A stretch of 64,000 nucleotides of DNA, from the NCBI GenBank assembly GCA_937958695.1, contig CALGNK010000013.1, positions 1-64,000 of the forward strand. The letters run 5' to 3'. Position numbers and translations under genes: made by a program. Positions 23,119 through 29,481 of the stretch are shown here, in pieces; the first letter of the stretch is position 1, and each line of letters begins with the position of its first letter. The notes under the pieces were generated by a model that saw nothing but the letters and a program-made list of their open reading frames with translations, was not told where the DNA came from and searched no databases. Source of the DNA: an uncultured bacterium. GTDB taxonomy: Bacteria; DUMJ01.

Positions 23119-25575
23119 CTAACCTGCCCCTTCTTGTGCCGCTTCCACTGGGATACGTCTTTCAAATATAAATGAATCATCCTTATAGTCTACAATAACT
23201 ATATCCCCCTCTTTAAATGTGCCGTCTATCATAAAACCAGATAACGGGCTTCCTATTCTCTTCTGTATAACTCTCTTTAGAGGTCTAGCACCATAACGAG
23301 GGTCAAAACCTTCTTTAATGAGCTGTTCCTTAGTATTTTCAGTAAATTCTAAAGTAATACCAAGACTCAGTAACTGCCTTCTAAGATCATTTAAAAGTAG
23401 TTCTACAATCTGTTTCATTTGTTCTTTTGTAAGTTGGTGGAATATGATAATCTCATCAACCCTGTTTAAAAATTCAGGCCTAAATGTATGTTTTACCTCT
23501 TCTAGAACCTTCTCCTTCATTATCTGATACTCTTCTTTTTCATTTGACTCTTGCTTAAATCCAATCTTACTTGAAGTTGAAATCCATTGACTTCCTATGT
23601 TAGATGTCATAATAATAACTGTATTCTTAAAGTCAACATTTCTTCCTTGAGCATCAGTAAGTCTTCCTTCGTCTAGTATCTGTAGAAGAATGCTAAATAC
23701 ATCCGGATGAGCCTTCTCGACCTCATCAAATAGGACAACAGAGAAAGGTCTCCTCCTTACAGCTTCTGTAAGCTGTCCACCCTCATCGTATCCTACATAA
23801 CCTGGAGGCGCTCCTATAAGTCTAGATACCGCAAACTTCTCCATATACTCAGACATATCAATCTTAATTAAGGCATCTTCATCGTTAAATAGATACTCGG
23901 CCAAAGCCCTAGCCAGTTCTGTCTTACCTACTCCAGTAGGTCCAAGAAATATAAAGGAACCTATAGGTCTCTTAGGGTCTTTTATCCCTGCCCTAGCCCT
24001 ACGAATAGCTTCAGATACAACTCTTACCGCCTCTTCCTGCCCAACTATTCTCTTGTGAAGTTCCTCCTCCATATGCAACAACTTTTCTGCCTCTTTCTCC
24101 AAAAGCTTAGTGACTGGAATACCTGTCCATAAAGATAAGACCTCTCCAACATCTTCCTCTGTAACTATAGGCTCTCTATGCTTTATATCTAAATCTTCAT
24201 TAGAAACTACTTGTAGTTGTTCCTGAATAAATCTTTCTCTGTCTCTAAGTTGAGCTGCCCTTTCATAATCCTGAGATCTAACCGCTAATTCTTTCTCTCT
24301 TCTTACACTCTCTAATTCTAACTCTAGCTCTTTCTTAGAACTAGGAGTCTCCGATAACTCTAATCTTACCTTAGCTGAAGCCTCGTCTATCAAGTCTATA
24401 GCCTTATCAGGTAGATGTCTCTCACTTATATACCTATCTGAAAGTATAGCAGCTGCCTCTATAGCTTTGTCTGTTATCTTTACCTGGTGATGAGCTTCAT
24501 ACCTTTCCTTTATACCCTTGAGGATCATTATTGTGTCTTCTACGGATGGTTCCTCTACCATAATAGGCTGGAATCTTCTCTCCAGTGCAGAATCCTTTTC
24601 TATGTATTCTCTATACTCATCAAGAGTGGTAGCTCCAATACACTGCAGTTCTCCCCTAGCAAGGGCAGGTTTTAAAATATTGGATGCGTCCATAGCACCT
24701 TCAGCTGCACCAGCACCTACCATAGTATGAAGCTCGTCAACAAAAAGAATAATCTCACCATTAGCTCTACGAATCTCATCGAGAATTCGCTTCATCCTCT
24801 CTTCAAATTCTCCTCTATACTTCGTTCCAGCTACTATTGCAGCTAAATCTAACGCAATAATTCTTTTATTATGCAAAATAGGCGGGCCTTCTCTCTTCAC
24901 TATTTTCTGGGCAAGTCCTTCTACTATGGCTGTCTTACCTACCCCGGCCTCCCCTATGAGAACTGGATTATTCTTTGTCCTCCTACACAATATCTGCATC
25001 AATCTTTTTATCTCTCTAGTTCTCCCTATAACAGGGTCAAGCCTCCCTTCTCTAGCTAATTGTGTTAAGTCTCTACCGAACTGGTTTAGAAGGGGAGTCT
25101 TAGCTCTAGATCTGTTAGCACTTTCGGCTAACATTGTTTTCCCTTCTCCTAAGAAGTATAGGACTTCACTTCTTGCTTTATCTAAAGTAATGCCCAAACT
25201 TTCTAAGATTTTAGCTGCAACCCCTTCACCTTCTCTTATAAGTCCAAGAAGTATATGCTCTGTTCCGATATAGTTCTGCCCCATTAATTTAGATTCTTCA
25301 TATGCTAACTCCAAAGCCCTCTTGGCTCTTGGAGTTAGAGTCATTTCGGGTAGGTATATACCTCCTCCTCTTCCAATAAGTTCTTCAACCTTAGCCCTTA
25401 CGTATCCCAAGTCTATACCCCAACTATTTAGAACCTTAGCAGCTATCCCTTCACCTTCGGCTAAAAGACCAAGGAGAAGATGTTCTGTTCCTAGATAATT
25501 ATGATTTAATCTCCTAGCCTCTTCTCTTCCCAGTGTTAACACACGTCTTGCTTGATCAGTAAACTTATCCCACAT
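23119..25575 (-). CDS. clpC: ClpC-type AAA+ unfoldase
   Basis: 818 residues. Two Clp_N repeats (about 3-145) are followed by two AAA+ modules with Walker A motifs GEAGVGKTA (near 208) and GPTGVGKTE (near 548), separated by a UVR-type coiled coil ([13 protein letters not shown]). A ClpP-docking tripeptide IGF is present at about 671-673, so this protein can be expected to feed substrates to ClpP. The start is ATG 25575 after AGGAG. It is the second gene of a two-gene operon with a small membrane protein and ends at a strong terminator. mcsA and mcsB are not present. Confidence 0.93.
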
Positions 25576-25588
25576 AATCAAACTCTCC

Positions 25589-25935: not shown

Positions 25936-28560
25936 TTATGATCCAGACTCTACAGGTGAAGAAGGTGCCTCTGTCTTTTTCTTAAACCTTATCTCTCCAT
26001 CCTCTACAGTGACTAGTATAGTATCACCCTCTTTAAAATCACCCCTAAGTAATAATTCGGAAAGAGGATTTTCTATAAGACGTTGTATAGTTCTTCTTAA
26101 AGGTCTAGCTCCAAATGTTGGGTCATAACCCTCTTTAGCTAGTATATCCTTCACCTCTTCAGTGACATCCATATTCATTCCTTGAGCCCTTATTTGACGA
26201 TATACCTTGTTAAGCATAAGGTCTACAATCTGCTTTATCTGCTCCTGTGTTAATGAGTGGAAGATTATAATCTCGTCTATCCTGTTTAGAAATTCTGGCT
26301 TGAAGTAGTAGTTTAACTGCTTCATTAGTTCTGCCTTTATCTCATTATATACCTTTTGGTCTTCTCCACCTTTGAGCTTCTCCATAATAAGTGGAGCCCC
26401 TATGTTAGAGGTCATAATAATGACTGTATTCTTAAAGTCTACCGTCCTTCCCTGTCCATCGGTAAGTCTACCATCATCTAGTATCTGAAGTAGGACATTA
26501 AATACATCTGGATGAGCCTTCTCAATCTCGTCTAAAAGTATCACCGAGTATGGCCTTCTCCTTACAGCTTCTGTAAGCTGTCCCCCTTCTTCATATCCAA
26601 CATAGCCAGGAGGTGCGCCAATTAATCTAGAGACTGTATGTTTCTCCATATACTCAGACATATCTAATCTAATAAGAGCATCTTCATCGTTGAATAGGTA
26701 CTCAGCCAAAGTCCTAGCTAGTTCCGTCTTACCTACCCCGGTAGGCCCAAGGAATAGAAATGAACCTATTGGTTTATTTGGATCTTTCAAACCAGCCCTA
26801 GCTCTTCTTATAGCCTGAGATATAGCCTTAACCGCTTCGTCTTGTCCAATTATTCTTTGATGCAGTATATCCTCCATATCTAACAGTTTCTTACTTTCCT
26901 CCACAGAGATCTTAGTCACAGGGACACCTGTCCAATTAGAAACTATCCTAGCAACATCATCTGCAGTAACTTCAACCTTTTCCTTAAGCCTTTCCTTTTC
27001 CCATTTTTTCTTAACCTCTTCAAGTTCCTTCTGTAACTCCTTTTCTCTATCCCTTAATGTAGCTGCACGTTCATATTCTTGAGCATTCACAGCTGCTTCT
27101 CTTTCTTTAGCTATCCTTTCTATCTCTTTCTCTAAACCTTTTATCTCTGGTGGCGGAGAGACAGTTCTAAGTCTTACATCTGCACATGCTTCGTCTATAA
27201 GGTCTATAGCCTTGTCTGGTAGATATCTATCTGTAATGTATCTATCTGAAAGAACGGCTGCATTATATATAGCTTCATCAGTAATCTTAACCCTATGATA
27301 AGCTTCATATCTGTCCCTTAACCCCTTCAATATCTCTATGGTTTCTTCTACAGTAGCTTCTCTAACAAGAATAGGCTGAAATCTACGTTCTAGGGCAGCA
27401 TCTTTCTCTATATGTTTTCTATACTCATCTAACGTAGTAGCTCCAATACACTGTAGTTCGCCTCTGGCTAATGCAGGCTTTAGGATATTAGACGCATCAA
27501 TAGCCCCTTCCGCTGCACCAGCCCCTACAATAGTATGTAGTTCATCTAAGAAGAGTATAACTTCACCGTTACTATTTATGACTTCATCTACTACTCTTTT
27601 TAGTCTTTCTTCAAACTCTCCTCTGTACTTAGTTCCAGCTACTATAGCTGCCATATCTAATGCCATTATTCTCTTATTAGAAAGAGATTCTGGAACCTCT
27701 CCCTTTACAATCCTCTGTGCTAGTCCTTCAACTATAGCAGTTTTACCAACGCCTGGCTCACCTATAAGGACCGGATTATTCTTCGTCCTTCTAGAAAGTA
27801 TTCTTATAACTCTTTCTATCTCCTCTTCTCTGCCAATTACAGGATCAAGCTTCCCTTCCCTCGCCATTTGAGTCAAGTCTCTGCTAAACTGATCTAGAGT
27901 CGGGGTAGTACTCTTTCCGGTAGGTCTTCTAGAAGATGTCTTCCTAGATTTTGTTAATTCTTCTCTCACTCTTTCGTAAGTTACTCCTTTCTTGTTAAGT
28001 ATCTGTGAGGGTAGATTCTTCCCTCTTAGTAGAGCAAGTAGAATATGCTCTGCTCCTACATAGTTGTCTCCTAGATAGCCAGCTTCATCGCTTGCCCTTT
28101 CTATAATTTGTTTAACCTCTGGAGAAACTGTCCTTTCTCCCTCCAAAGGAGAAGGAACAGCACTTTCTTCAATCTCTTTCTTTAATTCTTTTATATCTAT
28201 CCCTAGATTAGAAAGGATTTTCACTCCGATATTACCTTCCTGTATTATTCCAAGAAGTATATGCTCAGGGTTTATAGCTCCACTCCCTAATCTTCTAGCC
28301 TCTTCCTCTGCACTTATTAAAACCCTTTCAGCACTTTCAGAAACGGTATCTGAGACTGGCTCAAATTCTGGCTGATAGAAGAATCTTGTAAGTATATCGG
28401 GAAAACCACTAAAACTAAGGTCAAAGAAAGACCTTCCACTACTTAACAAACCTTGTTCTCTAGCACACTCATTACAGAGATGACTAACTGTCTTTCTCCC
28501 ATTAACTATACGGGTATATTGGACTGTGGCTTCCCTTTGATGACATATATCACATAACAT
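25936..28560 (-). CDS. ClpE-like AAA+ ATPase with N-terminal zinc finger
   Basis: 874 residues. The N-terminus has a four-cysteine finger (CDIC at 3-6, CNEC at 34-37) like ClpE and McsA. Then come two Clp_N repeats (about 75-200), AAA-1 with GEPGVGKTA (near 267), a UVR coiled coil ([13 protein letters not shown]) and AAA-2 with GPTGVGKTE (near 605). Unlike the neighbouring ClpC, the loop after MTSNIG (about 715-735) reads [11 protein letters not shown] and has no IGF/LGF tripeptide, so ClpP docking is doubtful. Start ATG after AGGAGGG. It follows hsp20 in an hspR-led operon, which suggests a heat-induced role perhaps like the disaggregase ClpB. Confidence 0.9.
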
Positions 28561-28632: not shown

Positions 28633-29100
28633 TTACTCAATGTTTATCTTTCTACCCTTAGGCGAAACCTCTTGTTTGGGAGCTCTTATCTCCAGTATAC
28701 CGTCTTTAAATGTAGCCTTAGCCTCGTCAGATTTTACAGCTATTGGTAGAGGTATTACTCTTTCGAATGCACCATAGCTTAACTCTCTTCTATAGTAGTT
28801 CTTCTCTTTTACTTCAGTTTCTTCCTTAGCTTGTCCTTTGATTGTTATAGAGTCCTCTGTAACGATTACTTCTACGTTATCTTTACTTACCCCAGGTAGG
28901 TTAGCCTTTACTACAACTTCTTTGTCTGTCTCATAGATGTCGCATGCAGGAGTCCATACTCGTCTAAACTCCTCAGTAGTCTCTAGGAGTGGCTCCCTCC
29001 TAAAGAATGGTGTCCTTTCAAACACCTCATCAAAGAGTCTCTCCATCTCTCTCCTTAGAGATTCAAGTTCTCTAAATGGATCCCATCTTCTCAATGCCAT
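28633..29100 (-). CDS. Hsp20 small heat shock protein
   Basis: 155 residues, typical for the family. It has a short N-terminal arm (WDPFRELESLRREMERLFDEVF), an alpha-crystallin domain (about 48-140) with KANLPGVSKDNVEV and ELSYGAFERVIPLP, and the YKDGIL-like FKDGILEIRAPK. Hsp20 oligomers hold unfolding proteins for refolding by ATP-driven chaperones. ATG follows AAGGAGGTG and lies 15 bases after hspR. The next gene encodes a Clp ATPase that could act on the same clients. Confidence 0.96.
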   Translation of the reverse strand: MALRRWDPFRELESLRREMERLFDEVFERTPFFRREPLLETTEEFRRVWTPACDIYETDKEVVVKANLPGVSKDNVEVIVTEDSITIKGQAKEETEVKEKNYYRRELSYGAFERVIPLPIAVKSDEAKATFKDGILEIRAPKQEVSPKGRKINIE

Positions 29101-29115
29101 ATCTTACACCTCCTT

Positions 29116-29418
29116 TCAAAAGTTTTCTAATAATTCTTTAAGTATTTCAGTAAAAACTCTATCCAAGTTATGTGAAGCCAGTTCTTCCTCGATCCGAAGT
29201 AACAACTTCACTCCAGCTAGGCTCATCCCCACCTTATTAGTAAGGCAGGTTATGAGCCTTAACCTTTCTAAGTCCTCCTCTGAGTAAAATCGTCTATTAC
29301 CTATCCTCTTAGGGACCACCAGTCCCCACTCTTCATATATCCGCAAGGTCCTTGGATGGACCCCTAAGAGCCTTGCTGTTACACTTATTAGGTAAACTGG
29401 CTCCTTGTTCTTACTCAT
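29116..29418 (-). CDS. hspR: HspR-like MerR-family repressor
   Basis: 100 residues. An N-terminal MerR helix-turn-helix (VTARLLGVHPRTLRIYEEWGL, about residues 12-32, then RRFYSEEDLERL) is followed by a short helical tail. It resembles HspR, the heat-shock repressor usually cotranscribed with dnaK or clpB; here hsp20 and a ClpE-like gene follow. I chose ATG 29418 because the promoter -10 box lies at 29437-29442; the open frame to 29514 would run through the promoter. The leader has little ribosome site, so expression may be low. Autoregulation through the inverted repeat at 29455-29481 is inferred. Confidence 0.85.
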   Translation of the reverse strand: MSKNKEPVYLISVTARLLGVHPRTLRIYEEWGLVVPKRIGNRRFYSEEDLERLRLITCLTNKVGMSLAGVKLLLRIEEELASHNLDRVFTEILKELLENF

Positions 29419-29436
29419 ATCATTTTCACGATAGAT

Positions 29437-29465
29437 ATAATAGCATATTATATTAAAGTTGTCAA
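29437..29465 (-). promoter_or_regulatory. promoter of the hspR-hsp20-ClpE operon
   Basis: Minus strand: consensus TTGACA (29460-29465), 17 bases, TATTAT (29437-29442), about 19 bases before the hspR ATG. It reads as a strong housekeeping sigma promoter, fitting control by repression. Confidence 0.8.
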
Positions 29466-29481
29466 TACCATTTACAACTTT
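29455..29481. promoter_or_regulatory. inverted repeat over the hspR -35 box, candidate HspR operator
   Basis: Perfect arms AAAGTTGT (29455-29462) and ACAACTTT (29474-29481), 11 bases apart, covering the -35 box. The known HAIR consensus (CTTGAGT, seven bases, ACTCAAG) is not matched; only a lone CTTGAG half-like stretch is present near 29511. Role inferred from position. Confidence 0.5.

Follow-up and report, generated by a model that had tools for sequence, protein, structure and literature searches.

Control by HspR is linked to the chaperones, and the HAIR element is the sequence by which the targets of this repressor are usually recognised. HAIR has been described as CTTGAGT-N7-ACTCAAG (PMC6102357, PMC7464140). 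For GlnR, contacts with the bases have been described from structures with DNA: the G of TGT is read by Arg28/27, which also contacts the T after it, and T7' and the first T are contacted by Arg31/30 and Tyr32/31, respectively (PMC9249791). Here, we analyse a palindrome at the promoter of an hspR-like gene from an uncultured bacterium, located in a window of 64 kb (the whole stretch of DNA that was analysed, to which the coordinates refer). We find it very probable that this palindrome serves the HspR-like repressor encoded in an hspR-hsp20-clpC-clpC operon as its autoregulatory operator, and it would represent a diverged HAIR; binding, repression and heat induction are what we infer from its sequence and setting.

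The palindrome and the hspR-like operon

The palindrome spans 29455..29481, reads AAAGTTGTAAATGGTATTGACAACTTT on the minus strand, and was studied by sequence, genome searches, congener comparison and shuffles. Its forward-strand arms, AAAGTTGT at 29455-29462 and ACAACTTT at 29474-29481, are perfect and separated by N11, exactly as the first-pass annotation had described them. AAT and ATT also pair inward of these arms, and with a centre of 3 bp, 11 of 12 positions pair in all (p ~0.002 against shuffled stretches of 250 bp). The core, TTGTAAAT-GGT-ATTGACAA (29459..29477, minus strand), has one mismatch to the consensus TTGWCAAT-N3-ATTGWCAA and contains an exact TGTNA-N7-TNACA box.

Within the right half of the palindrome lies the -35 hexamer TTGACA (29460..29465, minus strand), separated by 17 nt from the -10 hexamer TATTAT (29437..29442, minus strand), which is preceded by TG. 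Together they match a sigma-70-type consensus at 11 of 12 positions, and the earlier claim that the palindrome covers the -35 box of a strong promoter before hspR is borne out; TTGACA is by itself promoter consensus, which favours one arm of the palindrome. The HAIR element was indeed absent from the 300 bp before the hspR ATG, where the best match has mismatches at 6 of 14 positions. The ATG at 29418 is the more plausible start of hspR and lies 36 bp from the palindrome, while the program-made reading frame opens at TTG 29514, upstream of the promoter. The mRNA leader (29418-29442) would be only ~10-13 nt long if transcription begins 6-8 nt past the -10 hexamer, and a clear ribosome-binding sequence was not seen in it.

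The hspR-like gene (29116..29418, minus strand) encodes a protein of 100 aa with a MerR_1-type winged helix-turn-helix (PF13411, 73 bits against a cut-off of 21.6). HspR is its best NCBIfam family, with a score of 84.2 bits that falls under the equivalog cut-off of 105. Its recognition helix reads HPRTLR and not the majority form HPQTLR, and its C-terminus is ELLENF, not the glutamine-synthetase-binding tail of the SRF type. On the minus strand the gene is followed by hsp20, encoding a small heat-shock protein (28633..29100; reading-frame list and domain match), and then, according to the reading-frame list and family and domain matches, by a gene for a ClpC-like ATPase whose N-terminal segment is McsA-like (25936..28560), a small frame and another gene for a ClpC-like ATPase (23119..25581). 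The same operon, with its linkage of the regulator to hsp20 and two ClpC-like genes, is present in two congeners (loci L005 and L006). The cysteine-rich start of the first ClpC-like protein matches the McsA N-terminus (NF053706, residues 1-41), an apparent McsA-ClpC fusion whose start recurs in both congeners.

A clade of HspR relatives and its operator class

The HspR family was searched in 290 genomes of the domain, 239 of which had a match at E <=0.001. From this search 74 loci were taken, down to E ~2e-17, weaker matches being left out; in the phylum of genome G077, genes were recovered from 36 of 43 genomes with a profile built on five sequences of the window type, and 30 of the 36 genes were fetched. 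The compared set comprises 105 genes, including those of the window and its two congeners, with the duplicates L158 (=L118) and L160 (=L117) dropped and 117 plasmid records of relatives left out. The variable position of HPxTLR is occupied by Gln in 66 genes, Arg in 35, His in 2 and Pro in 1, and could not be placed in 1. A wing shorter by one residue marks 34 of the 35 Arg genes, as opposed to 6 of the 66 with Gln. In a tree of 104 genes (L113 was counted among the 105 but left out here), every Arg gene falls inside one clade of 41 rows with support 98/95, which also holds L176, L187, L123, L124, L126 and L127; this tree uses no more than 81 columns and its bootstrap was still unsettled, and long branches, the window's included, were flagged as possibly falsely joined.

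Palindromes recur ahead of the Arg genes, such as TTGACAATGCCATTGTCAA (L165) and CTTGACAATTCGATTGTCAAG (L119). At no more than 3 mismatches within 250 bp upstream, TTGWCAAT-N3-ATTGWCAA precedes 32 of the 35 HPRTLR genes against 5 of the 66 HPQTLR genes (first-order shuffles: 0.07 for the 35 Arg loci and 0.26 for the 66 Gln loci); because the consensus was derived from the Arg loci, their count is not an independent test, and the Gln loci serve as control. Counted by clade, the motif is found in 34 of 41 genes inside and 4 of 64 outside. It is present in 29 of the 30 loci of the G077 phylum and in 5 of the 7 other Arg genes, where L121 and L125 fail; the HPRTLR genes without it at this threshold are L121, L125 and L174, and the palindrome of L125 is longer, with one extra base in its centre. 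Against the strict consensus TTGACAAT-N3-ATTGTCAA, the window shows 3 mismatches (p 0.0035), L006 3 (0.006) and L005 4 (0.05), compared with 0 in L119, 2 in L120 (0.0005), 6 in L121 (0.62) and 5 in L125 (0.19).

HAIR itself, scanned with the same threshold and upstream length, precedes 4 of the 66 HPQTLR genes and 0 of the 35 HPRTLR genes, and no member of the 41-row clade carries it, so that a HAIR-based search would miss the clade; L128, with an exact HAIR, was the positive control of the scan. An HspR operator of the TTGWCAAT type was not found in the open-access literature searched. The passages of PMC545781 that bear on the letters TTGACAAT concern Fur- and PerR-type sites, with HspR absent.

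The genes next to these regulators differ. The L118 regulator is followed by hsp20, dnaK, grpE, dnaJ and a Clp-type gene (dnaK and Clp assigned by eye), which argues that the G077-phylum genes are heat-shock regulators too. The regulators of L119 and L125 adjoin FeMo-cofactor-type and MinD/ParA-type genes (Pfam), indicating that part of the clade serves something else. HPRTLR regulators in such non-chaperone settings are located in L119 (5355-6050), L120 (2208-2915), L121 (3240-3653) and L125 (1247-1636), with Pfam assignments for L119 and L125 only. Palindromes of the TTGACAAT type stand upstream of those in L119, L120 and L125, that of L125 measuring 34 bp. The L119 and L120 proteins have ~232-236 aa, apparently with a second domain after the helix-turn-helix, and their genomes also hold a canonical HPQTLR HspR (L136, L135).

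The position of the motif relative to the promoter is constrained as well. In 25 of the 30 G077-phylum loci the start of the palindrome and a TTGACA are exactly 24 bases apart, and with a stricter filter for the first palindrome the fixed-distance TTGACA is found in 24 of 29 loci, a -10-like hexamer (at most 2 mismatches) coming next in 15 of the same 29; we therefore take this TTGACA as the probable -35. With the middle half-site it makes up a second palindrome, TTGTCAA-N5-TTGACAA, and it is to this promoter-proximal one that the window's site corresponds. At that single fixed place from its -35 the window has TTGTAAA, which agrees with TTGTCAA at 6 of 7 positions, as does L006, with L005 agreeing at 5 of 7.

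The canonical genes show a related use of the -35 box. Up to 5.5 kb upstream and at no more than 2 mismatches, a hybrid site consisting of a CTTGACA arm and a HAIR arm occurs in 24 of the 66 Gln loci (0-4 in five shuffles), plain HAIR occurs in 7 (shuffles 1-3), and the 35 Arg loci have 3 hybrid sites (0-1) and 0 plain HAIR (0-1). In 23 of the 66 HPQTLR loci it is the left arm of the hybrid that is CTTGACA-like, mostly with TTGACA, and the HAIR arm is downstream. A -10-like hexamer (at most 2 mismatches) follows 16-18 nt on in 19 of these 23 loci, not in L128, L108, L112 and L093, which places the HAIR arm within the promoter spacer. The form CTTGACA-N7-ACTCAAG is often seen at canonical loci, namely L140, L141, L111, L134, L136, L153 and other HPQTLR loci. 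The hybrid sites suggest that the -35 box itself often provides part of an HspR operator. Probably the -35 doubles as a half-site at many HspR loci, and the clade of the window would do so from the upstream side.

These comparisons bear on the first-pass proposal that this lineage uses a different HspR operator. The site is the probable operator of hspR and a feature of a lineage, binding being predicted, but it does not appear to be unrelated to the usual one: its TTG-N13-CAA spacing equals that of HAIR while GAGT/ACTC is lost, and the shared geometry points to a diverged HAIR. It could be argued that it is simply an ordinary HAIR with many substitutions, read by a protein of unchanged specificity, since TTG/CAA stand at the spacing of HAIR and a TTGACA arm is already in place at many canonical loci. 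This is unlikely, as GAGT/ACTC is missing from both arms and the motif is shared across the clade and rare outside it, in a clade that lacks HAIR at up to 3 mismatches in the 250 bp upstream. We rather think it probable, though with less assurance than for the operator itself, that HAIR has been given up by a deep clade of relatives of HspR, mostly HPRTLR and short-winged, in favour of an operator of the TTGWCAA type, which uses the -35 from the upstream side. This clade would extend over several phyla (those of the window and of G077 and, outside a heat-shock setting, that of G170/G023), would include regulators beside NifX/MinD-type genes, and would form a natural series between the recognition codes of HspR and GlnR.

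Genomic copies, recognition and other readings of the site

Within the window the palindrome is the sole match at up to 3 mismatches (0.44 expected), and no other site in the 2.09-Mb genome matches with fewer than 3 mismatches, 20 matches in all comparing with 20 in the control. The searched set has three genomes of the window's phylum, all of one genus, and in these three patterns gave no excess of further copies over control; a second pattern search returned 4, 8 and 9 matches (control 17, 12 and 14) and a third 18, 15 and 21 (control 36, 29 and 43). A 2-mismatch site in L028 was rejected as an extra copy, for it falls within a guanylate kinase gene. HAIR at up to 3 mismatches has 70 matches in the window's own genome against 56 in the control, none of them with 0 or 1 mismatch, and the three with 2 mismatches among the matches listed are all within long open frames.

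The first-pass annotation had proposed looking for the same arms at other heat-shock promoters, and no copy was found at dnaK or groE. Those operons carry CIRCE, TTAGCACTC-N9-GAGTGCTAA: in the three congeneric genomes groESL has it with 1, 1 and 2 mismatches, and the hrcA-grpE-dnaK operon has it right before hrcA with 1 mismatch in 3 of 3, so another known repressor accounts for them. Since CIRCE is present there, and since hsp20 and two clpC genes belong to the hspR operon itself, the absent copies do not refute the operator. At the hspR promoter CIRCE was not found with up to 5 mismatches, either in the window's locus (L048, promoter included) or in L006; the scan of L005, its hspR promoter also included, gave one 5-mismatch match, 4 kb off. 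A second hsp20, before lon, is without a box in L053, and in L051 and L052 it has only a 3-mismatch match inside hsp20. The genome seems to divide its heat-shock control between HrcA and the HspR-like protein, a division of work that would leave further palindromes missing.

How the protein might read the site can be judged by alignment with GlnR, its best PDB match (3.6e-08), in which Arg28/27 corresponds to Arg23, Arg31/30 to Arg26 and Tyr32/31 to Ile27 of the window's protein. From this correspondence it is plausible that Arg23 is part of the specificity change. The Arg is not required, because L176 (His) and L187 (Gln) keep the motif and L122 (Gln) has it. Independent-pair tests of Arg against motif were not significant, with few independent changes available, and together with the same three loci they weaken the view that the operator is determined by the Gln-to-Arg change alone.

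The likeness to GlnR also raises the question of whether another regulator, such as one of the GlnR/TnrA type acting in nitrogen control, occupies the palindrome: besides the structural match, the TGTNA-N7-TNACA box is exact in the window and L006 and has one mismatch in L005. Still, the genome has only two MerR_1 proteins, the second of which adjoins an aldo/keto-reductase-like gene (by eye), a glutamine synthetase gene was not seen adjoining the site, and a palindrome of the same class precedes hspR in another phylum, which makes such a regulator distinctly improbable.

Another reading would have a strong promoter with a chance palindrome on it, the conservation being that of the promoter only. 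Half of the palindrome is promoter, and perfect 8-bp arm pairs at 11-base spacing are common by themselves, with six in the 64-kb window. However, the left arm lies outside the hexamers. The block from palindrome to start codon aligns well in L005 and L006 while the DNA further upstream diverges, and only the window has perfect 8-bp arms; L005 is changed inside the left arm (GTTATAAAT) and L006 at its outermost base, and with one change each the arm outside the promoter is largely kept. The left arm also fits the arm of the other phylum at its fixed place (p 0.0024 for the window, given its own base composition). We therefore place the palindrome above chance on the grounds of its 11/12 pairing, its retention in the congeners, its -35 overlap and this fit, and regard coincidence as very improbable. 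That the palindrome is a lineage feature is supported by its being kept in two congeners and by a similar class and placement in another phylum. A terminator of the upstream HAD-type gene, which ends on the same strand ~70 bp before the palindrome, is hardly credible, for the terminator scan did not list it and a T-run after the palindrome is absent.

Proposed mechanism and comparison with known systems

The palindrome, its promoter overlap, its conservation, its association with one clade and its fixed spacing are read directly from the sequences. On the preferred reading, that of an HspR operator, a MerR-type dimer would sit on TTGTAAAT-N3-ATTGACAA over the -35, one monomer per half-site. 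Placed there, it would block RNA polymerase and keep the hspR-hsp20-clpC-clpC promoter closed in the absence of stress; on heating, the block would be relieved by a route that we infer from the chaperone-linked control of HspR. The diverged HAIR would be paired with a clade whose members mostly have Arg in place of Gln in the helix and a wing shortened by one residue. In the promoters of this clade the -35 would be the right half-site, with the other half-site upstream, whereas at many canonical loci it would be the left one and the spacer would contain the other. A single alignable helix that reads two types of operator would offer a ready test of specificity change in MerR-type repressors.

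Compared with the HspR/HAIR systems as described for Streptomyces, Helicobacter and Campylobacter (PMC6102357, PMC7464140), the window shares a MerR-type repressor before chaperone genes, a TTG-N13-CAA inverted repeat, an operator at the promoter and the regulator's own gene in the operon. It differs in its arms, which are TTGTAA/TTGTCA as opposed to the TTGAGT of HAIR, in the HPRTLR helix, shorter wing and sub-cut-off HspR score of its protein, and, unlike known HspR/HAIR, in using the -35 as the right arm with the other arm upstream. With GlnR/TnrA it has in common the exact box, an Arg at the G-reading position and a second Arg (PMC9249791), but its protein has Ile for the Tyr of GlnR and ends in ENF rather than SRF (PMC9249791), nitrogen genes do not stand beside the site, and HspR is the better family match. 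HrcA/CIRCE resembles it as a system of heat-shock repression that operates on groESL and hrcA-grpE-dnaK in the same genome, yet it has another sequence, another spacing and another protein, and its element is not at the hspR promoter.
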